Counted from the stretch's first letter, positions 1-43,275 are shown. The stretch: 64,000 nucleotides of DNA from a virus (IMGVR_UViG_3300025917_000002:1-64000), one strand, 5' to 3'. The notes: a model not told the origin generated them from the sequence alone. Program-made: numbers and translations.

Positions 1-564
1 AAAGGGGCGGAGCGAGTCGGCACGATAGCCGGGCAGATCGTATCAAGCAGGACCATACCTGGGTTTGTTCGAGACGTTGCTCGGCTCGCGGACGCAGGGA
101 AGGATCGCGAGCAAAAGGGCTTCATGGGGCCGATCAAGGGCAGTATACCGGGTCTGCGGCAAACGTTGCCGGAGCGGCGGGTTGGCACGGGGGACTTGCG
201 CCGGAAGGCTATTGATGCGCTCCGTAAGGACCCCAAGGATACGAAGATACTGGACGATGCGATCACGGCGGGTAAGCTCCGGTCCCAGGACCGGGCGGAG
301 ATTATCGCTGAGTCGAAGCTCAAGCCCTTGCAAGTGGAGTTCAAGCACAAGCCGCTGGAGGAAAAGCTGAAGGCTTACCGGGGCTACGATCAAGCTCAGC
401 AGGACGAAACGAGGCAACTGCTGGTAGACTCGTGGGCGGAGGCGACCGGGGCAGCAAGACGGAGCCCCAAGACCGGGAAGATGGGGGAGCGGCGGACGCC
501 GAGCGCACCAGCGGCGCTGCTTGAGAGGCTTCGCCGGGAGTACGCAGCAGAGCTACCCCAATGA
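1..564 (+). CDS. Internal virion protein, C-terminal end (partial)
   Basis: The frame is open from the first base of the window, so this is the last 187 residues of a larger protein that begins to the left. The segment with PGFVRD (residues 20-25) followed about 20 residues later by GSIPGLRQTLP resembles the C-terminal part of very large internal virion or polyvalent proteins (LPD38-type) of short-tailed phages; that match is from memory of the family. The tail is basic and helix-rich with no membrane segment. The stop overlaps the next start as ATGA. A virion gene at this edge and another at the right edge would fit a circular map. Confidence 0.7.
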   Translation, partial: KGAERVGTIAGQIVSSRTIPGFVRDVARLADAGKDREQKGFMGPIKGSIPGLRQTLPERRVGTGDLRRKAIDALRKDPKDTKILDDAITAGKLRSQDRAEIIAESKLKPLQVEFKHKPLEEKLKAYRGYDQAQQDETRQLLVDSWAEATGAARRSPKTGKMGERRTPSAPAALLERLRREYAAELPQ

Positions 565-1058: not shown

Positions 1059-1241
1059 ATGCAATTAGAGATTCAGGTCATCATCTCTTTCCTAAGCGGT
1101 TTGGGGGCCGGTATCATCGGCTCATACATAGGCGTGAAAGTAGCACTGGCTGAGATGAGGTCTATTCAAACGGCGCAAGGTAAAACCATAGATGACCACG
1201 GTGAGAGGCTCAAATATGTGGAACGGAGGTCCCACACATGA
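1059..1241 (+). CDS. Single-span membrane protein, holin-sized
   Basis: Sixty residues with one glycine-rich membrane segment (about residues 6-28) and a short charged C-terminus ending in an ERL-Y-ER-like helix. Size and position just before a spanin-like pair fit a holin or antiholin, but nothing in the sequence proves it. It overlaps the following gene by four bases. Confidence 0.6.
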   Translation: MQLEIQVIISFLSGLGAGIIGSYIGVKVALAEMRSIQTAQGKTIDDHGERLKYVERRSHT

Positions 1242-1699
1242 GACACCAATTGTGGGCCTTACCACGAGCGGATAAGTTACTGTTGGTTGCTGTGGCGATA
1301 ATCTTTGCGGGGATAGTTCTGAGCATTATGTACGGGCTAAGGCAAACAGAACTGGCGACGTTGCGGGAAGCGGCCCAAAAGCAAAGGATGCAGGAAGCCA
1401 CGGAGCGGAACCAGTTGGAGATCGGGAAGAACAAATTGGAGGCTGAGCTTGAGATAACCCGGCTGAAGAATAAGACCGCTGAGCTGTCCGCCAATCAGGC
1501 GCAGAACAATCTGAGAGATGTGAGGGCGGCATTATCGTTCGTGAATCAACAGCGGGTGAAGGACCAAAAGGAGCATGACAAGAAACTTCAAGGGCTTATT
1601 ACGACCAACCTTGATGCGTGTAAGCGTTGGCTTGCTGAGTGTGCTCGCGCTAAGCAGCTTCACCTTCGCGCAGCAGACGCCCCGTGCGAATGCCGATGA
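1238..1699 (+). CDS. Inner-membrane spanin-like protein, copy 1
   Basis: A 153-residue protein with an N-terminal membrane segment (about residues 13-33) followed by a long predicted coiled coil, the topology of Rz-type i-spanins that bridge inner and outer membranes during lysis. The C-terminus has four cysteines in the pattern C-x6-C-A-R...C-x-C. The same pattern ends the protein encoded at 5441-5893. The last ~125 bases overlap the next gene in another frame, as in Rz/Rz1 pairs. Spanin function is inferred from topology and overlap only. Confidence 0.65.
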   Translation: MRHQLWALPRADKLLLVAVAIIFAGIVLSIMYGLRQTELATLREAAQKQRMQEATERNQLEIGKNKLEAELEITRLKNKTAELSANQAQNNLRDVRAALSFVNQQRVKDQKEHDKKLQGLITTNLDACKRWLAECARAKQLHLRAADAPCECR

Positions 1700-2060
1700 C
1701 GTAGGGCGGACGCTTTCGCGGTGCCTGAATGAGGTTGAGCGGCTGCGCGCTGATTGCCGGTCAGGTGAGGAAGTACGAACGCTGGAGGCTAAGCTGAAGG
1801 CAGCGGATGATATGCTCACGGTCTATAAAGAAATGGTCGCACGCGAGCAAGCGGAGACACGGGCCGAGGCTAATAGAGGAGCAGGGCGATACCTGGAGCA
1901 GCAGCAACAGATCAAGGGCTATGAGGCCCAACTGACGGCTACACGGGAGACGATCAATAAGGTATCGCGCTCCGAGCGCGCCTTGCGGCGATCCCGTAAT
2001 CTGTTTGTGGGGATTGTGATTGGGTTGAGCGTAGGGCTGGTTGGGGCGTTGAGTAAATGA
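1575..2060 (+). CDS. Secreted coiled-coil protein with C-terminal membrane anchor, copy 1
   Basis: 161 residues: a basic N-region and hydrophobic core ending in a plausible signal-peptidase site (FAQQ, about residues 31-34), then a charged coiled coil and a C-terminal membrane segment (about 143-160). This is the layout of a unimolecular spanin except that no lipobox cysteine is present. It is nested in frame +1 at the end of the preceding spanin-like gene. The start at 1575 gives a complete basic n-region; an internal ATG at 1614 is an alternative. A paralogue lies at 5772-6278. Confidence 0.65.
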   Translation: MTRNFKGLLRPTLMRVSVGLLSVLALSSFTFAQQTPRANADDVGRTLSRCLNEVERLRADCRSGEEVRTLEAKLKAADDMLTVYKEMVAREQAETRAEANRGAGRYLEQQQQIKGYEAQLTATRETINKVSRSERALRRSRNLFVGIVIGLSVGLVGALSK

Positions 2061-2221
2061 GCGGTATTAAACGATTTGAGCGGAAGCGACCCGTAACTCT
2101 GTTAAGATGGTGGTGGGCCGGGATGACTTACGGGTGGAAGCGCCGACCATAGAAGCGGCGCAGTCGTTAAAAGCTAAAGGAATGGCCGTGGGCATCAGGT
2201 TGGGAAAGTGAAGAAGATCAA
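2061..2221 (+). other. Short stretch with two possible mini-ORFs
   Basis: Two tiny overlapping reading frames exist here: 2057-2152 (31 codons, start overlapping the preceding stop as ATGA, Arg/Trp rich) and 2107-2211 (34 codons, starting MVVGRDDLRVEAP). The second looks more protein-like, but neither has a convincing ribosome binding site. At most one is likely to be real. Confidence 0.3.
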
Positions 2222-2803
2222 ATGCAAGGCGCAGGAACGATAGGGCGGATAAGGGCAAGAACTCGGGATGACAATACAAATATACTGACGCCAGTTGAGC
2301 AATATAATGAAGGTCACAAAGGGTGGCTAGTGGCAAGAGAATATCACTGGATTAAGGAGAGGTTAGGGCTGCGGACGGTCTTTATGTTCATCACCGCCGT
2401 TGCTGGAACCACGCTTGTCATAGTCCAGCTTGCAGCTCCCGCCGTTAAGCAAGGGGAGATCAACGGGGCTACGACCAGAGCTATAGACAATCTCAGCGTT
2501 CTTCAAGCGCAGGCGAAAGAGGAACAGGCAAAGGCGCTGGCAACTGCCACCGACCAGCAGGCTAAAGCGTTAGCCGATGCTCTCGCGCTGGTTCAAGCCT
2601 CCCAAGCCCGCATCGAAGCCGGGGTCAACCGGGCCATCGGGATCGCCGAGGAGAATCGCTCTGAAATCAGCCGTCAAAGCGAGCGTTCTGAGCGCCGTAT
2701 GGACAAGATCAGCGACAAGGCCGACGCCGCGTGGAACTGGATGTTGGAGCTAAAGGGGCGGGTTCAACAGGTCGAGGCGAAGCAACAAAAGGAGAACAAA
2801 TAA
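2222..2803 (+). CDS. Membrane-anchored coiled-coil protein
   Basis: 193 residues with one membrane segment at about residues 51-72, preceded by a roughly 50-residue polar region, then an alanine/glutamine-rich coiled coil through to the C-terminus with heptad-like spacing. No family recognised. The stop overlaps the next start (TAATG). The architecture resembles a third spanin or a structural protein that sits across the membrane, without evidence for either. Confidence 0.6.
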   Translation: MQGAGTIGRIRARTRDDNTNILTPVEQYNEGHKGWLVAREYHWIKERLGLRTVFMFITAVAGTTLVIVQLAAPAVKQGEINGATTRAIDNLSVLQAQAKEEQAKALATATDQQAKALADALALVQASQARIEAGVNRAIGIAEENRSEISRQSERSERRMDKISDKADAAWNWMLELKGRVQQVEAKQQKENK

Positions 2804-3015
2804 TGCCGGGAATGCTGGATAGATCAACTCAGATAACCAACGAGTTACGTACTACACGGGCCTACGGGAGAGAGATTGAGGGAATGGACGCAAGCACGCG
2901 CAAAGCCGCCCTCACAGAGCTGCTCCCCGATCTGGAAAAAGCCGTCGATCTCGCCGCCCTCCAGCAGTTCAACGAGAAGGCGCGGCTGTGGATCGATAAG
3001 CACCCGAAACCCTAA
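2803..3015 (+). CDS. Small hypothetical protein
   Basis: Seventy residues, charged and helical, no cysteines or membrane segment. The start is chosen because TAATG joins the preceding stop and this ATG and because AGGAG lies just upstream. Longer in-frame extension to 2731 would run inside the neighbouring gene and is not needed. Function unknown. Confidence 0.6.
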   Translation: MPGMLDRSTQITNELRTTRAYGREIEGMDASTRKAALTELLPDLEKAVDLAALQQFNEKARLWIDKHPKP

Positions 3016-3016
3016 T

Positions 3017-3190
3017 GTGCCGAAAAAGCCACGAGCTAACAAGGTATTGGATTGGGACAAGCGCATCCGCTTGCTTGAGCACCGGATTTCGCACGCAAAG
3101 CTGATGGGCGAGCACAAGCGCGTGATTGAACTGACGGCGCGGCTGGAACACGCACGGCGGAAGCGGGAGAAGGCATTGAGATTGCCGTAG
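3017..3190 (+). CDS. Small basic protein (GTG start)
   Basis: A 57-codon frame beginning with GTG two bases after the preceding stop. The product is Lys/Arg/His rich and strongly helical, ending in an R-R-K-R-E-K-A cluster. It may be nucleic-acid binding by charge alone. It is the last gene before a promoter and terminator at 3271-3348. Confidence 0.5.
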   Translation: MPKKPRANKVLDWDKRIRLLEHRISHAKLMGEHKRVIELTARLEHARRKREKALRLP

Positions 3191-3270
3191 CACCAATGGG
3201 TTTGTTGCGCGAGTGCATAAACCGGGGCATGCTCTGCTACGGCAATATTCCTTTAGTACCCGGCAACTTA

Positions 3271-3279
3271 TGGTATACT
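3271..3279 (+). promoter_or_regulatory. Extended -10 promoter
   Basis: TG-n-TATACT is a near-perfect extended -10 element; no good -35 lies at the right distance, as is usual for this class. Transcription would begin near 3286 and meet the intrinsic terminator at 3317-3348 before reaching the gene at 3365. Confidence 0.55.
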
Positions 3280-3316
3280 GCACACTAATGCAGTTCGACA
3301 ACAACCGTGTGAGGCT

Positions 3317-3348
3317 GCGGGATGGCTGCCCAAGCTGTCCCGCTTTTT
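3317..3348 (+). terminator. Intrinsic terminator / attenuator
   Basis: GCGGGA (3317-3322) pairs with TCCCGC (3338-3343), followed directly by five T. It lies about 30 bases downstream of the likely start of the 3271 promoter and 17 bases before the next start codon, so it would attenuate that transcript. Confidence 0.6.
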
Positions 3349-3364
3349 CGTTTAAGGAGAGATC

Positions 3365-3859
3365 ATGGCAAAAGGTGAGTTTCTAGGACAAGGCGTTGTT
3401 ACGCTAGTCGGCACAGGGGAGTTTACGGGCAAGCAGCGCCAAGTTGCCCTGTTGACCGAAGACACGGGCGACGGTTCATACGTCGGTGTGGTGTTTCTGG
3501 AGTCGCATTTCTTCCAAGAGTATTTCAAGGGTGAGGGCAAGGGCCAGTTTTCGAGCCTCGGAAAGACTGCGACTGGCGCTGTCCCGGTGCGTGTTGCCGG
3601 GCTTCGTCGCTATCCCTATACGGAGCGACCGAACTACTGGCCGCAGTTCGTTCTTCCCGGCGAGGACACCGAGCCGCTAAGAGCGATTATGCAGGCGAGC
3701 GCGGATGCTTATCAGTCGGGCACGCCGATCGGTCAAGAGCCGGTGCATGAGGTTATCCAAGACCCCGAAACGGGCGAGCAGAGTTTCGACCCTGCTGACA
3801 CAAACAAAGACGGCATAGTAGACAAGGCTGAGCGCAAGGCTGCAAAGAAAAAGGAATGA
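3365..3859 (+). CDS. Hypothetical protein with C-terminal EF-hand-like loop
   Basis: 164 residues. The N-terminal two thirds is beta-rich and globular with no recognised family. Near the C-terminus the loop DTNKDGIVDKAE matches the calcium-binding EF-hand/dockerin pattern D-x-N-x-D-G-x-x-D-x-x-E, followed by a lysine-rich tail. Start supported by AAGGAG eight bases upstream. It sits directly upstream of lysis genes; calcium binding is inferred from the loop only. Confidence 0.65.
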   Translation: MAKGEFLGQGVVTLVGTGEFTGKQRQVALLTEDTGDGSYVGVVFLESHFFQEYFKGEGKGQFSSLGKTATGAVPVRVAGLRRYPYTERPNYWPQFVLPGEDTEPLRAIMQASADAYQSGTPIGQEPVHEVIQDPETGEQSFDPADTNKDGIVDKAERKAAKKKE

Positions 3860-4101
3860 AAGAGGAATGGAGCAAATGGGCGGCTGTACTTGTGCTGGCT
3901 CAGGTCGGTGGGCTACTCGCCTATGAGTTCTATGCTCTACGCACGTCAGGCGACTCGTGGCCTACTATAACCGCGATGAGCGTGGCGGTCATGAAGAAGT
4001 ATTGGTGGGCGCTGATCGCTATCCTGGGGACGATTATGTGGCTGTTCTTGCATCTGCTGGTTCGGGTGGTTAAGAAGCAGGAACCGAAACCGAAAGTATG
4101 A
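3856..4101 (+). CDS. Two-span membrane protein, holin candidate
   Basis: 81 residues with membrane segments at about residues 8-26 and 46-70 and a basic C-terminal tail (KKQEPKPK). It overlaps both neighbours by four bases and is immediately followed by the lysozyme gene, the usual place for a holin. No specific holin family is recognised. Confidence 0.6.
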   Translation: MKEEWSKWAAVLVLAQVGGLLAYEFYALRTSGDSWPTITAMSVAVMKKYWWALIAILGTIMWLFLHLLVRVVKKQEPKPKV

Positions 4102-4946
4102 GGAAAACCGACGCCGCAGGGATCAAGTTCATCAAGGACGCAGAGGGCGTCAAGCTCCGGGCGTATAAGGACAGCGGCGGCGTCTGGACAATCGGCGTCG
4201 GACACATCGCCGGGGTGAAGCGCGGCCAAGTCATCACGGATGAAGAAGCCGAGGAATTTCTGGCCGAGGACCTGGAGGACGCGGAAGCAGGCGTTGACGA
4301 TGCAGTAACGGTTGCGCTGAATCAGAACCAGTTCAACGCGCTGGTTTCGCTGGCGTTCAACATTGGGGTCAGCGCGTTCGCCCGATCAACGTTGGTCCGT
4401 AAGCTGAACTCAGGTGATTATCAGGGAGCTGCGGATCAGTTCTTGCGGTGGAACAAGGATAACGGGGCGACGGTGCCGGGGCTGACGAACAGGAGGAAGA
4501 AAGAGCGGGCGTTGTTTCTGAAGGCCGCGCCAGCCCTGAACGGGGAAGTCACGAAACCGGCTCCAGAAGCCGTTCCTGGGGAGATCACTACAGAGAAGAT
4601 TGTCACCACCACGGTCGATAAACCCGGCTCGACGGTGGTGGAGAAAATCTCAAGTTCGGTATCGACGCTTGCCGGAAACGAGCAGATCAAAACCATCGCT
4701 AGTGAGGGAGTGGGAAAGCTGGCAACCAAAGCAATCGGCACGCTCGCAACCGCTGGCACCGGAGCAACCGCTGGAGCGGCCACAGCAAGCAATCCGTGGC
4801 CGTGGATCATTCTTGCGATTGTATGCCTGCTGCTCGCGGCGGGCGTGGTGTTTCTCTGGATGAAACATAAGAGCAACAAGGAAACCAAGACGGCGGAGAT
4901 CAATTCAGACAAGGACCGGGCCGATATAAAGTTTGTGAAGTCATGA
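4098..4946 (+). CDS. T4-type lysozyme (GH24) endolysin with C-terminal membrane anchor
   Basis: 282 residues. Residues 1-150 are a phage muramidase that cleaves the peptidoglycan glycan chain: the family signature E-x8-D-x5-T is present as Glu16, Asp25, Thr31 within EGVKLRAYKDSGGVWTIGVG. A roughly 80-residue Thr/Val/Ala-rich linker follows, then a strong membrane segment at about 234-254 and a Lys-rich tail. No N-terminal signal or SAR segment is seen. A typical enzyme of this family is 150-180 residues, so the anchor is an unusual addition that could hold the enzyme at the membrane until lysis. Confidence 0.9.
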   Translation: MRKTDAAGIKFIKDAEGVKLRAYKDSGGVWTIGVGHIAGVKRGQVITDEEAEEFLAEDLEDAEAGVDDAVTVALNQNQFNALVSLAFNIGVSAFARSTLVRKLNSGDYQGAADQFLRWNKDNGATVPGLTNRRKKERALFLKAAPALNGEVTKPAPEAVPGEITTEKIVTTTVDKPGSTVVEKISSSVSTLAGNEQIKTIASEGVGKLATKAIGTLATAGTGATAGAATASNPWPWIILAIVCLLLAAGVVFLWMKHKSNKETKTAEINSDKDRADIKFVKS

Positions 4947-5164
4947 CGCTCAAAGGCTATCGCAAGTTCTTATTCGCGCTCGTCGCGATGTTGCTGGCGT
5001 CGGGAATGTTGGCGTGGGGAAAGCTGGAATCAGGGAGCTACACAGCGATTATGATAGCGGCGATCAGTGGGTTTCTTGTAACTAACGCTGCGCAGGCGGT
5101 AGGGGTTAAGGTAGCAGAACGGCCAGCGGCGAAGCCAGCCATTGATGCGAGGTCACAAGGATGA
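4943..5164 (+). CDS. Two-span membrane protein, holin-like
   Basis: 73 residues with two hydrophobic segments (about residues 8-26 and 33-53) separated by a K-L-x-S-G-S-Y turn and a polar tail. Similar small proteins often accompany phage lysozymes and have been called holins. It overlaps the lysozyme stop by four bases. Confidence 0.65.
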   Translation: MTLKGYRKFLFALVAMLLASGMLAWGKLESGSYTAIMIAAISGFLVTNAAQAVGVKVAERPAAKPAIDARSQG

Positions 5165-5316
5165 GCCGACAAGAGCTTAAAGTACGGCTCACTATTCTCG
5201 AAGACTATCTTCTTGAATTTGGTCATTACTTAAATTATTCGGTGATGATTGCTTGGCAAGAATACGAACAAATCAAGAAGATGCTGGAAGGAACTAACAC
5301 AGGATTGCAAGGATGA
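5161..5316 (+). CDS. Small hypothetical protein
   Basis: 51 residues, acidic and helical with several aromatic residues. The frame starts with ATGA overlapping the preceding stop and ends in the same way, which is the main support. Function unknown. Confidence 0.55.
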   Translation: MSRQELKVRLTILEDYLLEFGHYLNYSVMIAWQEYEQIKKMLEGTNTGLQG

Positions 5317-5444
5317 TCGCACGCATACTAACGCTGATCTGGCTTGCTCCCTTTATCATCCTTGGGCTGATTGGGGCTAGCTATGTTGCGTTCTTGGTGT
5401 TTGTCGTACCGTGGATGAGCGCGGTTGAGCTGCTGACACAATGA
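5313..5444 (+). CDS. Very small membrane protein
   Basis: 43 residues, nearly all one or two hydrophobic segments (residues 4-35). Four-base overlaps on both sides support it as a real member of the lysis operon. It could be a holin partner or antiholin; nothing more specific can be said. Confidence 0.55.
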   Translation: MIARILTLIWLAPFIILGLIGASYVAFLVFVVPWMSAVELLTQ

Positions 5445-5893
5445 CCTACTCAGTAACCCAATTCTGGCAGTCCAGTAGCATCGGCTTAAAGCTCGCGCTA
5501 GGCATGGGCCTGCTGGTGGTTATCCTACTCACGTTCGGGACTACGAAATCATGTGTGAGTGCGTATAAGGACCGACAAGCGGATAAAGCAATCGCAGCGG
5601 CCCAAGCCGAAAGTACGGAGCACCGCAAACGGGCCGACGAAGCCGAGCTAAAAGCCCGACAGGATGAGGCGCGGCGAAAGGACAGTGATGCGAAGGCAGC
5701 ACTGGCGGAAGCAGCAGTAAACGCAGCTGGCGCTAAGGCCGAGGCAATAGCTGAAAAGGTGAAAGCCGAAGATGCGAAACTTACTGAAGAATTGCAGCGT
5801 GTTGGCGACGTTGTTGAGCCTTGCGAGCGGGTCCGCCGTGTTTGCGCAAGACTCAGGATCAAGGCCGAGGACTGTAGCTGCACAAGCAACTAG
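5441..5893 (+). CDS. Inner-membrane spanin-like protein, copy 2
   Basis: 150 residues: N-terminal membrane segment (about 16-38), a long Ala/Glu/Lys coiled coil, and a C-terminus with cysteines spaced C-x6-C-A-R...C-x-C, the same pattern as the protein at 1238-1699 even though the rest differs strongly. Its last 120 bases overlap the next gene in another frame. The repeat of both topology and overlap indicates an old duplication of a two-gene lysis unit or two independently acquired units. Confidence 0.65.
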   Translation: MTYSVTQFWQSSSIGLKLALGMGLLVVILLTFGTTKSCVSAYKDRQADKAIAAAQAESTEHRKRADEAELKARQDEARRKDSDAKAALAEAAVNAAGAKAEAIAEKVKAEDAKLTEELQRVGDVVEPCERVRRVCARLRIKAEDCSCTSN

Positions 5894-6278
5894 ACAGCGC
5901 ACGGTGACGGTGCCGGAAGCCGTGTTTCTTGAGGGCGAGAAGGCAATCGTCGAGCGGGACCACCTGCGGACTACGGACAAGCTGAAGGATGAGCGGATCG
6001 CTGCGCAGCAGGAGCAACTGAAGGCAAAGGATGATTTGCTCAAGGTGAAGGATGAGCAACTGGCGCTTGAGCGGTCGCGGGGGGATAATTGGGCGAAGGC
6101 CGCGCTAGAACGGAAGGAAGCGATCGTGTTCGACGATAAAGCCTTTCAGATTCAGGGGGCGGACCTGTTGCGCGTGAGGGCTGAACGTGATTCCGCGCGG
6201 GCTGCTAACAAGTGGTGGGGTGTTGGGGGGCTTGTGATTGGGGCTGCGCTGGTATTTGCGCAGCAAAGGAGAAACTGA
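5772..6278 (+). CDS. Secreted coiled-coil protein with C-terminal membrane anchor, copy 2
   Basis: 168 residues: signal peptide ending near VFAQDS (about residue 26), a long Lys/Glu coiled coil, and a membrane segment near the end (about 146-162, including GGLVIGAAL). No lipobox. It starts inside the preceding spanin-like gene in another frame, exactly as the pair at 1238-2060 does. Likely role: spanning the periplasm during lysis, by topology only. Confidence 0.65.
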   Translation: MRNLLKNCSVLATLLSLASGSAVFAQDSGSRPRTVAAQATRQRTVTVPEAVFLEGEKAIVERDHLRTTDKLKDERIAAQQEQLKAKDDLLKVKDEQLALERSRGDNWAKAALERKEAIVFDDKAFQIQGADLLRVRAERDSARAANKWWGVGGLVIGAALVFAQQRRN

Positions 6279-6279
6279 A

Positions 6280-6456
6280 ATGGAACTAAAAACAATCTTC
6301 TGGGTGCTGTGGCTGCTGTGGGCGATCTTCGGGGCGTACTCGGGTTGGGCAATGACCGGAGCCGACCGTGGCCGGTGGTATGGCAATAACCTGTTACTAC
6401 TGGTCCTGTTCTTTCTGATCGGCTGGAAGGTGTTCGGGTTCGTGGTGCAGGGCTGA
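6280..6456 (+). CDS. Two-span membrane protein
   Basis: 58 residues with two tryptophan-rich hydrophobic segments (about 4-24 and 36-56). AAAGGAG lies nine bases before this ATG, which decides the start over an upstream in-frame codon. Probably a small membrane component of the lysis or entry-exclusion set. Confidence 0.6.
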   Translation: MELKTIFWVLWLLWAIFGAYSGWAMTGADRGRWYGNNLLLLVLFFLIGWKVFGFVVQG

Positions 6457-7561: not shown

Positions 7562-10500
7562 TCATAGCTTGATCTCCTCCATCGCCCCGAGCGATTTCCC
7601 CACCGACACTTCGACTTGGCACCACAAACCCTCGGGTGCAACCACCGGATCAACCAGCACCGGCGACGGCCTTTCCATCAACGGCTTGATGTTAGCTATG
7701 CACTCATCCACAAGGTTCGACGGGCAATCGAAGACCAACGAATCGTGAATCTGGTTGCTCAGCCCGTACCGCTCGTCCCAACCTTTCTCGTACATCTCCA
7801 ACATCACATCCCGCATCATCCCGAAGGCGTCGTTCTGGACGAAGTGGGAGATCGCTGCTTCCGCGTCCGTCCCGTACTTATACTGCTGCCTCATCGCATC
7901 CCAGACCATTACGTTCCAGAACCAACGAATGAAGCCGTAGCGGCTCTTGAGATAATGCTGACGGTGTGCAAGCTCTTTTACATCCCGTTGGAACTTTACT
8001 TCGAGGGGGAACAGTGCCCGCCAGAGGTCCACCAGCTTTTGGGCTTCAGCCTGCGAGCTAATAAAGTCTTCGTGCCCTTCCCATATTCCACGAGGGCCAC
8101 GACCGAGTCCCATACCTAAAATCACAGCCTTACTTTGCTCGTTTCGTACTTCCTTGAATGTGAGTAATCTACCCTTTGGCCCTGCGTACTTCTGCTCGGG
8201 TTTTGCCCTCCACCACACCAACCGCTCTATCATCTCGGCGTCATCCATAGCAAGGAGCTTATCGGCTTTTTCCAGCTTCAAAATCTGGGTCGTGAAGAAC
8301 GAGTGCATATCACCGCGAGCGAGTCTAACGTAAGTCTTGTCCTTGCTCTCGAAGCCAAGTGTCAAGATATGAAATGACTTCCAATCTGCCTCGATCAATA
8401 GATTACCGGGGGCTGCGGTAATACACTTCCGCAATGGTTTTGCAAGGACTCCATGCTTCGGAATTTGCTGGAGAGGCGCACCGTTCCTCGTGCTCAACTG
8501 CCCATTCGCTGGCCTCGTCGTGAAGTCCGCCCGGACCCGCCCGTCCGGCCCCGGCATGAAACCACCTGTCATCGTTTCGATGTCGCCTACGTAGGTTCCG
8601 AGCATCTTGGATGGCTCGCGGTAGTCCAAGATCAGCTTGTAGAAAGGGTCCTTCGTCCGTCGGGCAAGCTGGAGCAGCGCCTTCTCGTTCACCGACTCCT
8701 CTCGGACCTTGATGCCGTTCTTCTTCTTGCTAACCACCGGCACCTGATGCCGCTTGTGCTTCGCGTAGGCCATTACCTGTTGCCAGGAACCGGGGTTGAA
8801 GTCCAACGGTTTCGACCACACCGTCTGGACGGCTGGCTGCACGTCTTCAGTTGGGGCAAACAATCCCCCCTTTCCTACATCAACTCGTAGGTCCCGCTGG
8901 ACATAACCAAGCTCCCCGAACGCCTCTTGTTCGAGCCTCGCCTTGACCGGCGCGATCAGTTCCGCCAGCCGCTTCTTGGTGAGCTTCGGCAAGCTCGGGT
9001 CGGCAGCGAGCGCCGCCTGCTGGGCCGCCACGATGTTCGGCTCAAGCTTCGCGAGCCGCTGTTTCGCCAGCTCTCGAACGTCCTTGGGCAGCCCCTTATA
9101 GTCGTCGAACTGCTGCAACGCGGCAGGGACGAGCGGGGCAAGCTCAGCGCGTACTCGCGCTATGGTTTCCTTCAGCAAAATGCCGAACGCCACGAGCTGC
9201 TCGCGGTCAACGCCGACGCCGCGCTTGGTCATCGCGTCGAGGACCGGGCGCAAGCCTCGGACGTACTTGCAATAGGTGTCCCAGACGCCGACTTTCTTCA
9301 TTGCCGCTGGTAGCCCTTGGTGGATTCTCAGCGTGGCATCTGTATCTACACAGTTCTCAACTAACCCACCCATTGTGAAAAACCGATGGGTAGGATGGTC
9401 AACTGTTATATCGTAGCGAGCACTCGCCCGTTTCGTTCTCGGCGCTATGGATAAAACCACAGTCCATTGAGCTACGTGAGTAGCAAGCCAGCCATTGTAT
9501 TGACCCCTATACTGTGGTGGTAACTTGTACTCCATTGAGGGTGGGACGAACGGGGCCACTCGGCGGCAGAACTCATATCTAGCATCGCCACACAGAGCCA
9601 CACAACCACCCTGTTTAGATCGTGGGTCTTTATAGTAGCTGACGTGTGAATCCCCAAACTCGGATTTGAACCAAGGTACTATATCCGCTAGGTTGGCAAA
9701 TCCTTGAATCGTTATCCGGGGGTTTCCTATTTGGTTGGGCTTCTTACCACCAGCCCAGTTGCCATCATCACAATACCAAATGGCTAAGGCGGCGTCAGAC
9801 GGTGGTGGTATGAAAATCTTTTTACCATTGGGGTAGAAGCGCTTTCGCCATAACGTGGGACTTACCCAAACCTCGGTTGCAAAACCGCCCGTCGAGTTGA
9901 CGCGACTACCACGAATTGGTGGATTGCTGATTGGGGGCAATACATACTTAGGCCCGTTCAGATTCTCCCGCTTCGCATCAAAGTAGGCTTCTTGTTTGTT
10001 ACAGTGTGTAAACTTAAAACGCCCACGGCGATCAACACTAGCATCGCCTAAGAGAGTGCCATGTAGTAAATCGGCACTACCCGGATTGGCGGATACTACG
10101 CTATCCCCTATGCGTAACTGGTCTGCTCGCTGCCAACCATCATCGGTCCAAATTTTGTGATCCGCAGTACAATAGATGGGCTGATCGGTTGCCTCTGTTT
10201 TTATGGAGAGCCACGGTGTTCGGCCCGTCTTACCCGACCTAGAAATACGCCGCCATCCAACCACTCTTACTGGTATGATCTGCCCTTGCTCATCCATCCC
10301 CTTTAGTATTGGCGAGCTTTTCTGTAGAACCACATCACCTATTTGGGTATTCCCCCCATCCCATAACATCAGTCGTACATCACTTGCGAGGCACCCGTAG
10401 AACCGCAGGTTTGGCCCCGCGTAGTGCTTCCAAGGGAAGGGCTGGCCGAACCAGCTCGCGACGAACTGCAAGTCCGCTGGAAGATCGGGCTGGAGCGTTC

Positions 10501-11551
10501 GCCACATGAACAACGTATCATCAATCAATCCCGCAACAGGTAGGCCAGCACGCCCAAGAATAGGATTATCGAACAGCCAAACATTATGCCCGACCTTAGA
10601 GTTAGGGAGTGCAAGGGTACGTCGAGCGACTTCGTCAAAAGGAGATATGAAAGGCAGAGCAATACCACTGCCAACTCCTGTTGAGAATTGAATGAGCGTA
10701 ATCTTCTGCCCCAGTTCTTCATTGTCCCCCTCATCCTCGCTCTTACCGGCAGAGCGATCCGTTTCGATGTCGTAGCTGATCGTCAAGGCCGGGTCGGCCT
10801 TACAGCGCTCGTAGAACGCTTCCGCGTCAGCGGGGCTGGGGTCCGTCTGGTAGCTCAACCTCGGGTCATCCATCGGGTTCAGGATGAACGGAGCCTCGGT
10901 CAGCAGCGGCTTCTCTACCCTCTTGAGCTGCCCTTCTACCTGCTCCCAACTCGCCACCGTCCTGACCTGCGCAAGCAACTTCGCAATCTCCAACGCCCTC
11001 CGAATGTCCTCAACGAACACCCTAAACAAATGCCCTGCGCCTTGCTGAATGTAGCTGGGATGGTACGTGGGAACCACGACCAGCCCATCGTACTCGACCG
11101 CTTGCAGAACGTAACCCCTCATCTTTGTGCTGGACTGGTCGGTTCCGCTCAGCCCAGTCAGGGTCCGGTGCGGGATCATGCCCATCGCGAGGACCACTTT
11201 GATTTGGGGGTGCGCGGCGATTGCTTCGCGGAAGAAATGTTTACATTTTTCTATAGCCTCAAACTCGAATGGCATCCCAAGGAGTTGATTCGCTTGGTTA
11301 GGTCTGCAACGAATTGTGTTGGTGATGAGCAAGCTCTGGCGATCTACCCCGAGCAGCTTCAGGGCACGGGCAAAGACGGACCCGGCAGCGGCCCTTGGTC
11401 GAAGTGGGAGTGCATCGTTTTCTTCATGCTGGCCGAGCGATTCTGCCATAACGCATAAGCCGCTCGTGCCATTTCCCTCTAGGTGGCTGAAGCCACCAGA
11501 GCCCGCCAAGGGGCAACCGCTCTCGGCACAATAGCTAGGTTTAGGAATCAA
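7562..11551 (-). CDS. DNA polymerase I family A with UDG-like N-domain and intein
   Basis: 1329-residue precursor. Residues 5-190 resemble family 4/5 uracil-DNA glycosylases (C-x4-C at 8-13, AESLGQHE, HPS at 164-166), an arrangement known from SPO1-like polymerases. Residues 250-386 and 734 onward form a 3'-5' exonuclease (Exo I DIETD at 261-265, Exo II GHNVWLFD at 321-328, Exo III split by the intein). Residues 970-1329 are the polymerase: motif A at Asp1056, motif B Arg1136/Lys1141, motif C HDS at 1269-1271. Motif A reads DWKSFH, with His where most Pol I enzymes have the active-site Glu. The intein (387-733) must splice out for activity. The phage replicative polymerase. Confidence 0.93.
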   Translation of the reverse strand: MIPKPSYCAESGCPLAGSGGFSHLEGNGTSGLCVMAESLGQHEENDALPLRPRAAAGSVFARALKLLGVDRQSLLITNTIRCRPNQANQLLGMPFEFEAIEKCKHFFREAIAAHPQIKVVLAMGMIPHRTLTGLSGTDQSSTKMRGYVLQAVEYDGLVVVPTYHPSYIQQGAGHLFRVFVEDIRRALEIAKLLAQVRTVASWEQVEGQLKRVEKPLLTEAPFILNPMDDPRLSYQTDPSPADAEAFYERCKADPALTISYDIETDRSAGKSEDEGDNEELGQKITLIQFSTGVGSGIALPFISPFDEVARRTLALPNSKVGHNVWLFDNPILGRAGLPVAGLIDDTLFMWRTLQPDLPADLQFVASWFGQPFPWKHYAGPNLRFYGCLASDVRLMLWDGGNTQIGDVVLQKSSPILKGMDEQGQIIPVRVVGWRRISRSGKTGRTPWLSIKTEATDQPIYCTADHKIWTDDGWQRADQLRIGDSVVSANPGSADLLHGTLLGDASVDRRGRFKFTHCNKQEAYFDAKRENLNGPKYVLPPISNPPIRGSRVNSTGGFATEVWVSPTLWRKRFYPNGKKIFIPPPSDAALAIWYCDDGNWAGGKKPNQIGNPRITIQGFANLADIVPWFKSEFGDSHVSYYKDPRSKQGGCVALCGDARYEFCRRVAPFVPPSMEYKLPPQYRGQYNGWLATHVAQWTVVLSIAPRTKRASARYDITVDHPTHRFFTMGGLVENCVDTDATLRIHQGLPAAMKKVGVWDTYCKYVRGLRPVLDAMTKRGVGVDREQLVAFGILLKETIARVRAELAPLVPAALQQFDDYKGLPKDVRELAKQRLAKLEPNIVAAQQAALAADPSLPKLTKKRLAELIAPVKARLEQEAFGELGYVQRDLRVDVGKGGLFAPTEDVQPAVQTVWSKPLDFNPGSWQQVMAYAKHKRHQVPVVSKKKNGIKVREESVNEKALLQLARRTKDPFYKLILDYREPSKMLGTYVGDIETMTGGFMPGPDGRVRADFTTRPANGQLSTRNGAPLQQIPKHGVLAKPLRKCITAAPGNLLIEADWKSFHILTLGFESKDKTYVRLARGDMHSFFTTQILKLEKADKLLAMDDAEMIERLVWWRAKPEQKYAGPKGRLLTFKEVRNEQSKAVILGMGLGRGPRGIWEGHEDFISSQAEAQKLVDLWRALFPLEVKFQRDVKELAHRQHYLKSRYGFIRWFWNVMVWDAMRQQYKYGTDAEAAISHFVQNDAFGMMRDVMLEMYEKGWDERYGLSNQIHDSLVFDCPSNLVDECIANIKPLMERPSPVLVDPVVAPEGLWCQVEVSVGKSLGAMEEIKL
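9353..10393 (-). mobile_element. Intein with LAGLIDADG endonuclease inside the polymerase
   Basis: 347 residues between Y-G and C-V-D-T-D-A of the Exo III motif. It starts with Cys (CLASDV, block A), has a TADH block B, two LAGLIDADG-like helices (LLHGTLLGDA and ALAIWYCDDG), a block F-like segment and ends VEN followed by Cys. The penultimate residue is Glu where His is usual, so C-terminal cleavage may be slow or need another residue. Insertion in a catalytic motif is typical of homing at conserved sites. Confidence 0.9.
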
Positions 11552-31511: not shown

Positions 31512-31725
31512 AAAGTACGTCCAGACGCGCGATGGTGATAAGATCGTGGTCGGCGAGGGCCGGTCCCGGTTGCACAAAATCGCTTGTTGCGACTGTGGCT
31601 TGGTTCACGTTCTCAAGTTTAAGCTGGAGGGCTCGGTTATTACGTTTAGGGCGTACCGGGACAATCGGGCGACCGGACAGCGGCGGCGGAGGGAGCACGA
31701 GTTTGTGCCGAGGAAGCGCCGATGA
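31501..31725 (+). CDS. Small basic C-x-CG protein (TTG start)
   Basis: 74 residues, basic, with A-C-C-D-C-G-L-V-H-V in the middle, similar to phage proteins found next to terminase genes. The only start in the needed place is TTG at 31501. Overlaps the terminase start by four bases. Confidence 0.5.
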   Translation: MRAKKYVQTRDGDKIVVGEGRSRLHKIACCDCGLVHVLKFKLEGSVITFRAYRDNRATGQRRRREHEFVPRKRR

Positions 31726-34580
31726 CAATAGATATGTCAGCCTACTCCCCCGAGCAGCTCGCGGCCCTCGATGCTGAGGCGGCGCTTGCGATGGGGGCGG
31801 TTGCGGCGATGACCAAGGTGGTCAGGCCGGAGCCGCAGTGGTGCCCTCACAAGCCGAGCGAGCGGCAGAAACTTTTCCTCGACCTTGATTGCTCGGAGGC
31901 ATTTTATGGTGGGGCGGCGGGCGGAGGCAAGCAGGTTCCGTTGTCCACTCCCATCCCAACACCCGATGGATTCACGCAGAATGGAGACTTGCGAGTTGGG
32001 GATCGTGTGTTTGATGAGAACGGGCAAATTTGCCGGGTTACGACTTTGTTTCCTACAGAACTTCCGCAGGTTGCGTATCGTCTCACCTTCGATGACGGCT
32101 CTCAAATAGATGCGTGCTCGGAACATCAGTGGCTCACATTTGATGCAAAGGAACTTGGGGCGCTTACTAGGCGTGATCCTGTATGGAGAGCCCGACGACG
32201 GGCTAGGCGAGAGTCTAGGGTACTAGGGACCAAATCCAAAAAGTTTACGGCCAGCCTTATTGCGCGAAACATGGCAAATCCCCCACCATCATTACCCCCA
32301 CCGACTGGATCAATCCGAACCACGGAAGAAATCTATCAGACCCTCTACACAAAAAAGGGTCGGGCCAACCATGCAATCCCAGTTGCGGGCGCGCTGAATT
32401 TACTTGATGCTGATTTGCCCATTGATCCGTACACACTTGGTCTATGGTTAGGGGATGGGATGTCGGCATCGGGTCGAATAGGGATGGCATTAGCTGACGC
32501 TGACGAGATTAAAGTACCCTATGTACGGGGGACGCGGAAGATTAGAGAACCCAATGGCGTCACCTCCTTTTCTGCCTTTGCTACGGACTACTATCCCGAT
32601 TTACATGTGAGGCTAAAGCAGGCAGGGCTCATAAATAATAAGCACGTTCCAACGGTTTATCTCCGAGGGTCCCGAAGCCAGCGATTGGCCTTACTCCAAG
32701 GTCTGATGGATACCGATGGAACCGTGTCTGATGGTGGCTCGGCTGAATTTGCAAACACAAACAAGCTCTTAATTGATGCTGCGCATGAACTGATCGTCAG
32801 CTTGGGATGGAAAGCCAGAATTATTGAGGGGCGAGCGAGGTGCAATGGTGAGGATCACGGACCAGTGTGGAATATAAAGTGGACGCCCTCGGACTACGTA
32901 TTTCGCCTGCCGCGCAAATGCCGAAAGCAGAAACTTGCTGTGCGCCGCACAACCCGATTTCGATACATTGTTGATTGCCGCCCGATAGAGCCTGAACCGA
33001 TGCGCTGTATTGCGGTCGATGCGCCTTCACACTTGTACCTCGTAGGCCGTTCGATGATTCCAACACACAACAGCGATGCGCTCTTGATGGCCGCTTTGCA
33101 ATACGTCCACGTCCCCGGCTACGCAGCAATCCTGTTCAGGCGCACGCTGACGGACCTCGCGCTCCCCGAGTCCCTAATTCCCCGGTCGTTCGAGTGGCTC
33201 AAAGGGCGGACCCCGGCGGTTTGGCATGAGAAGGAGTCGCTTGGGGTGCCGGGGCGGACGTGGGTTTTCCCGAGCGGCGCGACGCTCACGTTTGGTTATC
33301 TGGACACCGAAGTAGACAAGTACCGCTACCAATCCAGCGCCTACCAGTTCGTCGGCTTCGATGAGGTCACGCAATTTACCGAATCAATGTATCTTTATCT
33401 GTTCAGTCGGCTGCGCCGCCTGAAAGCGATGGACGTTCCGTTGCGGCTCCGGGCCGCAAGCAATCCTGGCGGAGAGGGCCACGAGTGGGCGAAGGCCCGA
33501 TTCATTCCCGAGGACTATACGAAGGACCAGGGGAAGGAACTGAAGGTCTGGACGAAGACGTTTGTTGATGACGAACAGAAGGAAATCACGACCCAATTCG
33601 TGCCGTCGCGGATCACGGATAACCCCGCGCTCGACCAAGCGACCTATATTGATGGCTTGGGGAAGCTCGACCGCGTTACACGCGAGCAATTGCTCTATGG
33701 AGACTGGGCGATCTCCCCGACCGGGCGAACCTACTTCAACCCTGACGCCCTCGCTCTGTTCAAGGCGATGCCCGCCGAGATCGGAGAGCTGGTTTTTACC
33801 GAGAACCGGCTCGGAGAGAAGCGGCTCATCTTCCAGCGGCGCGAGGACGGGATGCTCAGCGTGTGGCGAACGCCCGTCGCCGGTCGCCGCTACGTGATGG
33901 GCTGCGACGCCGCGCTTGGCAAGGACGCGAACAAGGGCGAAGGCAAGGTGGACCCGGACTGGTCGGTGGTGCAGGTCCGCGAGCAGGAAACCGGCGAACA
34001 GGTGGCGCGCTTTCGCGGTCGGATCAGCGAAGCGTTCTTCGGCGAATATTGGGTCCGGCTCCACCGCTGGTACAACAACGCTTTCGTCGTTCCCGCCGTT
34101 ACCGGTGGCTACGGGCGCGCGGCGCTCGTCAGCGCGATGGCGACGGGCTTAGAGGCGAAGTACGTCTACTGGCGCGAGGACGAAACAGGGATGCCCGGTC
34201 GTCGCCCTACGGGCGCTCCTGACCTCGGTTTCACCGAGTCGGTCGCAACGAGGCCGGTCCTCTACTCTCTGCTCGACACCGCAATCATCCAGCACGCGAT
34301 TGAGACTTATGATGCTGTGACGATCAACGAGTATTATGCGTTCGAGATTAACAAGGATGGGAAGCCCCAGGCGCGCGCGGGCACCAAGGATGACTGCGTG
34401 ACGGCGGACGCCCTCTGCGTCAAGGGGATGCAGGTCGCCCCCCGCGTCATCAAACCGGCGCTCGGCTCGTTCGTGCCCCGGCGTAAGTACGGAGGGCCGC
34501 AGGCGGCGAGGGACTGGGAGGAGGAGCGGTATTGGAGGGAGCAGATGAAGCCGACGGGGTCGAGGCTTGATCGGGGGTAG
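31722..34580 (+). CDS. Terminase large subunit with intein
   Basis: 952-residue precursor; about 572 residues after intein removal. The ATPase has Walker A GGAAGGGK-S interrupted by the intein at residues 71-450, and Walker B V-G-F-D-E. The nuclease part carries M-G-C-D-A-A-L-G and a later D-D-C-V-T-A-D-A. It translocates DNA into the prohead and cuts concatemers. Followed by its own stop and a promoter for the next unit. Confidence 0.92.
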   Translation: MTIDMSAYSPEQLAALDAEAALAMGAVAAMTKVVRPEPQWCPHKPSERQKLFLDLDCSEAFYGGAAGGGKQVPLSTPIPTPDGFTQNGDLRVGDRVFDENGQICRVTTLFPTELPQVAYRLTFDDGSQIDACSEHQWLTFDAKELGALTRRDPVWRARRRARRESRVLGTKSKKFTASLIARNMANPPPSLPPPTGSIRTTEEIYQTLYTKKGRANHAIPVAGALNLLDADLPIDPYTLGLWLGDGMSASGRIGMALADADEIKVPYVRGTRKIREPNGVTSFSAFATDYYPDLHVRLKQAGLINNKHVPTVYLRGSRSQRLALLQGLMDTDGTVSDGGSAEFANTNKLLIDAAHELIVSLGWKARIIEGRARCNGEDHGPVWNIKWTPSDYVFRLPRKCRKQKLAVRRTTRFRYIVDCRPIEPEPMRCIAVDAPSHLYLVGRSMIPTHNSDALLMAALQYVHVPGYAAILFRRTLTDLALPESLIPRSFEWLKGRTPAVWHEKESLGVPGRTWVFPSGATLTFGYLDTEVDKYRYQSSAYQFVGFDEVTQFTESMYLYLFSRLRRLKAMDVPLRLRAASNPGGEGHEWAKARFIPEDYTKDQGKELKVWTKTFVDDEQKEITTQFVPSRITDNPALDQATYIDGLGKLDRVTREQLLYGDWAISPTGRTYFNPDALALFKAMPAEIGELVFTENRLGEKRLIFQRREDGMLSVWRTPVAGRRYVMGCDAALGKDANKGEGKVDPDWSVVQVREQETGEQVARFRGRISEAFFGEYWVRLHRWYNNAFVVPAVTGGYGRAALVSAMATGLEAKYVYWREDETGMPGRRPTGAPDLGFTESVATRPVLYSLLDTAIIQHAIETYDAVTINEYYAFEINKDGKPQARAGTKDDCVTADALCVKGMQVAPRVIKPALGSFVPRRKYGGPQAARDWEEERYWREQMKPTGSRLDRG
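31932..33071 (+). mobile_element. Class-3-type intein with LAGLIDADG endonuclease in terminase Walker A
   Basis: 380 residues from Gln71 to Asn450, followed by Ser as the +1 residue and splitting GGGK from S. The first residue is not Cys or Ser. The class 3 W-C-T triad is present: Trp137 (S-E-H-Q-W), Cys429 (R-C-I-A-V-D) and Thr448 (P-T-H-N). LAGLIDADG helices are at 237-246 and 324-333. Class 3 inteins initiate splicing through the block F cysteine. Confidence 0.85.
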
Positions 34581-41262: not shown

Positions 41263-41426
41263 AACCGACTGACCCTGATGTTTGCCCCAAGTGTCGAGGC
41301 GACTTGGGCTGGACCTTACGCGGCTCAATGGACGGCAACCCCTATCGCGGCAACGTCGCAACCTGCCGTGATTGTGATTACTTTTACGAGCCTAGTGAGG
41401 AGTGGCTGCGGATACATAAGCGATGA
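41241..41426 (+). CDS. Zinc-ribbon mini-protein
   Basis: 61 residues: C-P-K-C and C-R-D-C about 25 residues apart with aromatic Y-F-Y after the second pair. Located between the double ribbon and the glycosyltransferase ORF. Function unknown. Confidence 0.6.
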   Translation: MGLEAKVEPTDPDVCPKCRGDLGWTLRGSMDGNPYRGNVATCRDCDYFYEPSEEWLRIHKR

Positions 41427-43105
41427 CCAACGGCCTCGTCAGCATCATAATCCCCTCCCGCAGCGAGCAATTCCTCGTCCCCACGGTCAACGATTTGTTC
41501 GCCAAAGCGGTTGGTCCCATCGAAGTAATAGTGTGCTTGGATGGTGGGTCATGGCCTGATCCACCCCTACCGTTCGACCGTGGAAGCCTCACTGTTATCC
41601 GCCATTCAGAGTCCCTCGGCACGCGCGCCGCGATCAACGCCTGCGTCGAAGCCGCCAGTGGCGAGTTCATCATGAAGTCCGACGCTCATTGCTTGTACGC
41701 GGAAGGGTTCGATGAGGCCCTCAAAGCCTCTTGCTTCTCCAACCACGTCGTCGTCCCCCGCCGCAAGCGCCTTGACGCGGAGAACTGGCGCGTCGAGGAA
41801 ACCAACCGGCCCGACTGCGACTACGAATACATCCAGTGGCACCCCACCGACTTCGGCGGTCGCGGCCACAACATCGCCCGTTGGGAGGAGCGCAACCGGG
41901 ATGAGTCGCTCAAGTCGATCCCGATCGACGACCTGATGGCCTTCCAGGCGAGCTGCTATTTCATGCGCCGAGACTACTGGAATTTCCTAGAACTGATGGA
42001 CGAGTCCGCCTACGGCAAAACCCAAAACGAAGGAGAGGAGATCGCGCTCAAATGTTGGCTCAGCGCCGGGCGGGTAGTTATCAACAAGCTCACGTGGTTT
42101 GCCCACTTGTGGAAGGGCTCCCGCTACCCCCGCGACTACAAGTTCGAGCCGTCCGACCTCGCCCAAGGCGCGAGCGGCGTTCAGCGGTGGCTCACCGACT
42201 CCGCGTGGCCCAAGCAAACGCTCCCGTTCTCGTGGCTGATCGACAAGTTTAACCCACCCGGTTGGCCCCCCGATTGGCGCGCGCAGGTAATCAATGACCA
42301 GTCTCGGCCAGTACCAATATCGCACGGAAGCCGGAGCCCTGATGCCCCCGGCTCTCCGCTACCACAACTGGATCAACCAAGCCCTGCACCGGGGCCACTG
42401 CCCGCTGAACGCGACGCTCCTAGTGCTGGGGTCGTTCTACCAAAGGATATACGGTCTATGAGCGATACGCTTGCCCGCATCCTCGGCAAGTTCAACCTTG
42501 ACCCGAGGGCTGATTACAGCAAGGTCACGATGCCCCTTACGTTGCGGATGAACCGCACGGAACTTGCCGCGTTGTTCGCCGAACTCGGTTTCACCGTGGG
42601 GGCGGAGATCGGCACGGCGGCGGGAGATTATGCAGAGACGCTCTGTAAAGCGAACCCCGATCTGCTGCTCCTACATTGTGTGGACAAGTGGCAACCTTAC
42701 CACGGCTACACCGACCACACCCATAAGACGACGTTGGACGGATTTTACAATGAGGCTAAAGCGCGGCTCGCACCTTATCCCGTGTTTATGCACCGTGAGT
42801 GGTCGTTGGATGCGGCGAAGGAATTTGAGGACGGTTCTCTTGACTTTGTCTACATCGACGCGAATCATAGGTACGAGTACGTCGTCGCCGACATCGCCGC
42901 GTGGCTCCCGAAGGTCCGCTCGGGTGGAGTCCTCGCGGGCCACGACTTCAACCAGTCCCGCCAGTCCCGCAAGAAGCTCTTTGGCGTCGTCGAGGCCGTC
43001 ACCGGCTGGTGCTCCGCCTACAACGTAGCCCCTTGGTTCGTCTGCAAGGGCGAATGGGTTTCGGTCGGAGATAAGACGCCGAGTTGGTTCTGGGTGAAGC
43101 CATGA
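41423..43105 (+). CDS. GT2-type glycosyltransferase joined to class I methyltransferase
   Basis: 560-codon frame. Residues 5-270 are a GT-A glycosyltransferase (S-I-I-I-P-S-R-S-E start; acidic S-D-A-H sugar-nucleotide site near 87). Residues 345-555 are a Methyltransf_24-like AdoMet enzyme (G-A-E-I-G-T-A-A-G-D-Y, D-F-V-Y-I-D-A-N-H). Between them is a Pro/Ser linker read from DNA that also encodes a 55-residue gene in another frame (42294-42461) ending at ATGA with an internal ATG (42458) that would start the methyltransferase alone. So this may be two genes fused by an indel, or a true fusion. It likely modifies a phage or host glycan. Confidence 0.75.
   Translation: MTNGLVSIIIPSRSEQFLVPTVNDLFAKAVGPIEVIVCLDGGSWPDPPLPFDRGSLTVIRHSESLGTRAAINACVEAASGEFIMKSDAHCLYAEGFDEALKASCFSNHVVVPRRKRLDAENWRVEETNRPDCDYEYIQWHPTDFGGRGHNIARWEERNRDESLKSIPIDDLMAFQASCYFMRRDYWNFLELMDESAYGKTQNEGEEIALKCWLSAGRVVINKLTWFAHLWKGSRYPRDYKFEPSDLAQGASGVQRWLTDSAWPKQTLPFSWLIDKFNPPGWPPDWRAQVINDQSRPVPISHGSRSPDAPGSPLPQLDQPSPAPGPLPAERDAPSAGVVLPKDIRSMSDTLARILGKFNLDPRADYSKVTMPLTLRMNRTELAALFAELGFTVGAEIGTAAGDYAETLCKANPDLLLLHCVDKWQPYHGYTDHTHKTTLDGFYNEAKARLAPYPVFMHREWSLDAAKEFEDGSLDFVYIDANHRYEYVVADIAAWLPKVRSGGVLAGHDFNQSRQSRKKLFGVVEAVTGWCSAYNVAPWFVCKGEWVSVGDKTPSWFWVKP
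42294..42461 (+). CDS. Overprinted small protein at GT/methyltransferase junction
   Basis: 55 residues, protein-like (starts MTSLGQYQYRTEAGALMPPA; later H-R-G-H-C-P-L-N-A-T-L-L-V-L-G-S-F-Y). Its stop overlaps ATG 42458, in frame with the methyltransferase, by ATGA. The fit to the operon pattern argues that this frame is or was translated. Confidence 0.5.
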   Translation: MTSLGQYQYRTEAGALMPPALRYHNWINQALHRGHCPLNATLLVLGSFYQRIYGL

Positions 43106-43275
43106 AGTGGAAGGACGAGTCAAAGTTCTCGAAAAGCAAGCGTAAGTATTGGGTGAGAGCGCAAGGTGATATTGCTGAGAGGTGGAAAGGTAGTGGCCCC
43201 AAACCCGAAACGAGAAGCGAGAAACGGAGGGATCGGTTAGCTCGTGGTATATTAGGCATAAAGAAAAATGCGTGA
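43102..43275 (+). CDS. Small very basic protein
   Basis: 57 residues, Lys/Arg rich with W-K-G-S-G-P-K-P-E-T. ATGA coupled to the methyltransferase stop; overlaps the next gene by eight bases. Function unknown. Confidence 0.5.
   Translation: MKWKDESKFSKSKRKYWVRAQGDIAERWKGSGPKPETRSEKRRDRLARGILGIKKNA

Follow-up and report, generated by a model that had tools for sequence, protein, structure and literature searches.

Two overlapping, lipobox-free spanin-like gene pairs in the genome of a soil phage

Two-component spanins connect the two membranes, inner and outer, whose fusion they are believed to bring about after the loss of the peptidoglycan (PMC6139136). In the survey of these systems, at least one periplasmic cysteine was present in either subunit in 507 of 528 two-component spanins and in none of 58 u-spanins; the i- and o-spanin genes may stand about 1 kb apart (PMC6139136). 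The survey demanded a lipobox and stated that other anchors were left unconsidered (PMC6139136).

In the overlapped class, represented by P2 LysB/LysC and Rhizobium phage P106B gp41/42, a type II coiled-coil A protein with C-terminal cysteines is followed by a B gene that starts within the 3′ end of A in the +1 frame, with overlaps of 146 and 86 nt, respectively, and an adjoining endolysin. The B proteins of this class are short lipoproteins with an N-terminal anchor. In the embedded class, typified by lambda Rz/Rz1, the A protein is likewise a type II coiled coil with cysteines, and the second gene, encoding the proline-rich, lipidated Rz1, lies entirely inside the first, also in +1. The T7 spanins share with lambda and P2 the two-gene overlap in +1. 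The u-spanin T1 gp11, in turn, is an exported protein with a lipobox (LSGC), a strong C-terminal TMD, and no partner.

ORF analysis of the 64-kb window (the whole stretch of 64,000 nucleotides analyzed here) identified a soil phage genome with two copies of an overlapping spanin-like gene pair, A1/B1 (unit 1) and A2/B2 (unit 2) (Table 1). The initial annotation had described two units of the same layout, and all four ORFs were indeed found at its coordinates, each starting with ATG. In both units the B frame is +1 relative to A and B overlaps the final ~40 codons of A, by 125 nt in unit 1 and 122 nt in unit 2, which corresponds to the overlapped arrangement of adjacent spanin genes. In the common plan, A is a coiled coil with type II membrane topology, and B combines a signal peptide with a coiled coil and a hydrophobic segment at the C terminus. 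In contrast to the overlapped class, the B proteins here are longer, helical, and devoid of a lipobox, they end in a hydrophobic segment, and two units are present in a single genome. Each A gene is preceded by a small one-TM protein gene with an ATGA overlap; sequence comparison of the two small proteins found no similarity between them.

Table 1. Features of the two units and of the region between them (all on the + strand)
Feature	Coordinates	Description and basis
60-aa protein	1059..1241	One TM; ATGA overlap with A1
A1	1238..1699	153-aa i-spanin-like protein; ORF, TM, hydropathy, AF2, frame score
B1	1575..2060	161-aa secreted coiled coil, +1 frame of A1; ORF, chance test, frame score
B1 signal peptide	1575..1670	Residues 1-32; SPase I-type site FTFA/QQ (cleavage site by inspection)
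A1 C-terminal motif	1619..1693	C-x6-CAR...C-x-C, within overlap with B1
B1 C-terminal segment	1998..2054	Glycine-rich, hydrophobic (NLFVGIVIGLSVGLVGALS)
Hairpin	3317..3343	Intrinsic-terminator-like, between the units; 11-bp stem, T run; consensus match only
81-aa protein	3856..4101	Two TM, candidate holin; TM prediction, no family match
Lysozyme-type endolysin	4098..4946	PF00959, E=2e-49; C-terminal TM helix; marks lysis cassette
73-aa protein	4943..5164	Two TM, candidate holin; TM prediction, no family match
43-aa protein	5313..5444	One TM; ATGA overlap with A2
A2	5441..5893	150-aa i-spanin-like protein; N-terminal TM, Cys cluster
B2	5772..6278	168-aa secreted coiled coil, +1 frame of A2
B2 signal peptide	5772..5846	Residues 1-25; site AVFA/QD (cleavage site by inspection)
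A2 C-terminal motif	5822..5881	C-x6-CAR...C-x-C (Cys 128, 135, 145, 147)
B2 C-terminal segment	6213..6263	Short, glycine-rich, hydrophobic (WWGVGGLVIGAALVFAQ); marginal as TM helix

Both A proteins are predicted to have the i-spanin architecture, i.e., an N-terminal TMD and a periplasmic C terminus, often coiled coil: a single TM helix (residues 14-32 in A1, about 14-34 in A2) leads into a long, helical, charged periplasmic portion. With a two-sequence alignment as input, AF2 modeled A1 as one unbroken helix from residue 10 to 140 (mean pLDDT 85). A1 has four cysteines clustered at the C terminus (128, 135, 150, and 152) and A2 has five (38, 128, 135, 145, and 147). The C-x6-C-A-R...C-x-C terminus attributed to the first members in the initial annotation proved exact, with the first two cysteines at identical residue numbers. 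In profile searches A2 weakly matched PHROG 312 ‘Rz-like spanin’ (E=1e-4), the match being confined to the coiled-coil region, and no family match was obtained for A1, B1, or B2. Pfam, NCBIfam, and PDB searches with the pair proteins gave generic coiled-coil matches or none, and Foldseek returned nothing useful, a lone helix being uninformative.

The B proteins are where the pairs depart from known spanins. A lipobox scan detected no lipobox in B1 or B2, neither at an o-spanin lipoprotein signal nor at the N terminus as in a u-spanin, while recovering T1 gp11 and its other four controls (Rz1, Bor, LysC, and 18.7). B1 has two cysteines (50 and 61), both predicted to be periplasmic, and its AF2 model is helical with low confidence (65.5). 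The C-terminal segment of B1 (19 residues) has a moderate 19-window hydropathy of 2.05 and that of B2 (14-16 residues) a marginal one of 1.26, compared to 2.97 for the T1 gp11 TMD; rough translocon insertion estimates, from an approximate simplified scale, were about −0.1 and +0.6, respectively, versus −3.9 for T1 gp11. Being marginal for translocon insertion by this rough measure, the B segments may cross the inner membrane and become inserted elsewhere. The proposed description of the second members as secreted coiled coils with a C-terminal membrane anchor thus holds for both as regards predicted signal peptides and hydrophobic ends, but the anchor label is uncertain for B2. Similarly, their suggested identity as u-spanin-like proteins without a lipobox stands for the missing lipobox, but the likeness to u-spanins is weak: B1 carries two periplasmic cysteines, the C-terminal segments are much less hydrophobic than that of T1 gp11, and each B gene overlaps that of an A partner. 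Exported and ending in a hydrophobic segment, T1 gp11 resembles the B proteins in those two respects.

That the B frames are genuinely coding was assessed by recoding A with synonymous codons and checking the +1 frame for openness and for a signal-peptide hydrophobic core. The frame stayed open in 22-27% of the recoded genes, as a chance origin of B would allow, but a core matching the observed strength arose in 0 of 20,000 recodings for unit 1 and in 0.3% for unit 2. In each unit the B frame opens 9-15 nt ahead of the B start, and a codon-usage model trained on structural genes successively favored frame A, both frames in the overlap, and frame B. Frames open by chance are already contradicted by the signal peptides, by B codon usage past the overlap, by the presence of B in both units, and by the count of 0 such pairs in 733 kb, and we give this explanation practically no credence. 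The same +1 relation in both overlaps might also suggest a programmed frameshift joining A and B into one protein with membrane helices at both ends; however, each B has its own ATG right after a stop upstream, together with a separate signal peptide that would be superfluous in a fusion, and no slippery site was noted, short of a systematic search. We regard this reading as very improbable. Whether dual coding might by itself generate the C-x6-CAR motif was tested by shuffling the signal peptides, and this possibility was largely rejected, the motif arising in the A frame in 0 and 0.08% of trials; dual coding does increase Cys content but alone appears insufficient for the motif.

The two units occupy the end of the late region, flanked by a 2,115-aa gene and a convergent polymerase gene. 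The record ends share an exact 127-bp direct overlap (window positions 1-127 equal the last 127 bases of the record L005, positions 73642-73768), indicating a circularly closed genome of about 73,641 bp (~73.6 kb) in which the 2,115-aa gene spans the ends (67858 to window position 564). Unit 2 is located 0.5 kb downstream of the lysozyme gene and near the two-TM holin candidates, i.e., in a lysis cassette, as expected of a two-component spanin. Unit 1 has no adjoining endolysin and merely shares the late region. The hairpin between the units is one of 11 terminator-like hairpins matching the consensus, against 7.7 expected. The lysozyme itself, a catalytic domain followed by a TM helix, is organized like the C-terminal-TM endolysins of Hafnia phage Enc34 (PMC8943055), Rhizobium phage P106B, and RcapMu; the Enc34 enzyme differs in belonging to another catalytic family and in being followed by a canonical lipoprotein spanin. 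The best NCBIfam matches of the lysozyme in the window, below the cut-off, were a Bartonella GTA endolysin and SpmX, a hint of an alphaproteobacterial-type host.

Around related lysozymes of named phages, an overlapping pair occupied the same slot at 6 of 14 loci (Rhizobium P106B, Erwinia LS-2018a, Pseudomonas GP100, Caulobacter BL199, Hafnia yong1, and Pseudomonas MPK9), placing unit 2 in an ordinary spanin slot. In all six the B protein has a lipobox and lacks the C-terminal segment. None of the other loci has two units, which, the genome being complete, bears out within the sampled loci the earlier view that a second unit is unusual. The pairs might instead encode lysis-timing or superinfection proteins (antiholin-like, periplasmic sensors) and not outer-membrane disruptors, a reading in keeping with the many late-region membrane proteins of this genome and with a unit 1 that adjoins no endolysin. 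We deem it improbable, as in the sampled phages the overlapping type II/secreted pairs next to a lysozyme are spanins, and no other spanin was found in the genome.

This last point derives from the lipobox scan of the closed 73.6-kb genome, which revealed no credible lipoprotein and no other o- or u-spanin candidate: the hits were four short ORFs, each lying inside a larger ORF or antisense to one, and a scan under another lipobox rule had a similar outcome. These spurious ORFs being the sole lipobox candidates, and B being tied to A by the overlap in both units, there is little probability that A alone is a normal i-spanin whose o-spanin is an unrecognized protein elsewhere in the genome (a non-canonical lipoprotein or a β-barrel), even though the genes can be separated by about 1 kb (PMC6139136) and the weak Rz-like PHROG match is limited to A2. 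We also devised a pair-layout scanner, which recovered lambda Rz/Rz1, P2 LysB/LysC, and, in the window, these two units alone, its sensitivity being incomplete as it missed T7 18.5/18.7. Applied to 733 kb of other viral contigs, it detected 0 pairs with either a lipobox or a C-terminal segment. Nor was such a pair found in four spanin-less phages, LUZ24, Petty, and 16-3 (searched in part) and RcapMu (whole), so the lipobox-free pair is no general answer.

Layout, frame, cysteines (four in A1, five in A2, and two in B1), the coiled-coil nature of the proteins, and the location of unit 2 beside the lysozyme all favor the spanin-like reading put forward in the initial annotation. As judged from sequence, the pairs are spanin-like on most counts yet outside the known spanin classes, given that a lipobox was looked for and was absent. 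The Cys cluster of A near the putative interaction end fits the disulfide rule of two-component spanins (PMC6139136).

We see about an even chance that each of the A/B pairs acts as a spanin-like device for envelope disruption, with an unlipidated B that uses its glycine-rich C-terminal segment. A would be the inner-membrane subunit, its long helix reaching into the periplasm with the cysteines at the tip. B would be exported by Sec, cut by signal peptidase I, and paired with A via the helices, its C-terminal segment then inserting in a membrane, most plausibly in the inner leaflet of the outer membrane, where it would replace the o-spanin lipid anchor with reversed polarity. The complex, with both units presumably needed, would draw the membranes together once the lysozyme strips the peptidoglycan, as proposed for Rz/Rz1. 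Against such a device speaks the absence of the lipobox, the defining o-spanin feature. Moreover, insertion of a single hydrophobic helix in the outer membrane is unusual, and the B1 segment might just as well be arrested in the inner membrane.

An A-B complex residing wholly in the inner membrane (A as type II, B as type I), reaching the outer membrane by its free distal ends or having another periplasmic lysis role, is the strongest competitor, with something like half the probability we accord the device. A protein with a signal peptide and a hydrophobic helix at the C terminus normally adopts type I topology, the B1 segment has 19 residues and a hydropathy of 2.05, and the QQRRN end of B2 would put positive charge on the cytoplasmic side. 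The periplasmic side also bears high positive charge (+5 in B1, +2 in B2), however, contrary to the positive-inside rule, the flanking charge thus not clearly preferring type I inner-membrane topology; in addition, the B2 segment is marginal, and the complex would be left without outer-membrane attachment. 

Returning to the envelope-disruption device, its general form would be a lipid-independent class of two-component spanin, with a fusion-peptide-like glycine-rich C-terminal helix anchoring the outer subunit in the outer membrane, o-spanin polarity reversed, and two paralogous, possibly heteromeric units. We advance this broader proposal tentatively, as possible but doubtful. With its complete genome and a pair that lacks a lipobox in the spanin position, this phage offers a concrete, testable candidate, and it suggests a search strategy for ‘spanin-less’ phages based on pair layout instead of the lipobox. 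A literature search on duplicated or lipobox-less spanins found nothing relevant.

Units 1 and 2 are probably diverged copies, as suggested mainly by the B1/B2 similarity, the Cys motif (C-x6-C-A-R in both A proteins), and the layout. The B1/B2 local alignment scored 71 versus 38±8 for block-shuffled sequences, with 1 of 1,000 shuffles reaching 71. In a comparison of 105 pairs of spanin-like proteins, B1/B2 ranked fourth with a z of 4.7, near the value for lambda Rz versus T7 18.5 (5.2), with one unrelated coiled-coil pair at 4.3. Full-length similarity between A1 and A2 is weak, being equaled in 30 of 1,000 block shuffles.

Searches with A1, A2, B1, and the B alignment found no homologue in the viral contigs, nor did searches with all four proteins in phage records at E≤1. 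TerL and the lysozyme used as bait in the viral contigs, and the replication protein used as a query in bacterial genomes, retrieved no relatives. The DNA polymerase search yielded three near relatives with matching replication genes, all lacking the lysozyme and any such pair. Two of these, G002 and G003, encode a clear lipoprotein (MRRLSILSLVLTLLLAS/CAPKTN...; L011:12248-12739 and L016:7047-7538) with no counterpart in the window phage. A small two-TM protein downstream of unit 2 (6280-6456) is the sole late-region neighbor with a relative in G002 (L011:10743-10940, 45% identity). Elsewhere in the window, the family A DNA polymerase ORF (7562-11551, − strand) carries a uracil-DNA glycosylase domain at its N terminus as well as an intein-like LAGLIDADG insertion, and the terminase large subunit ORF (31722-34580) contains a LAGLIDADG-like insertion, probably an intein. 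The structural region includes two large glycosyltransferase (and methyltransferase) proteins (41423-45136), and the 619-aa protein encoded at 60993-62852 contains a long tract of Ser-Pro-Ser-Val repeats.
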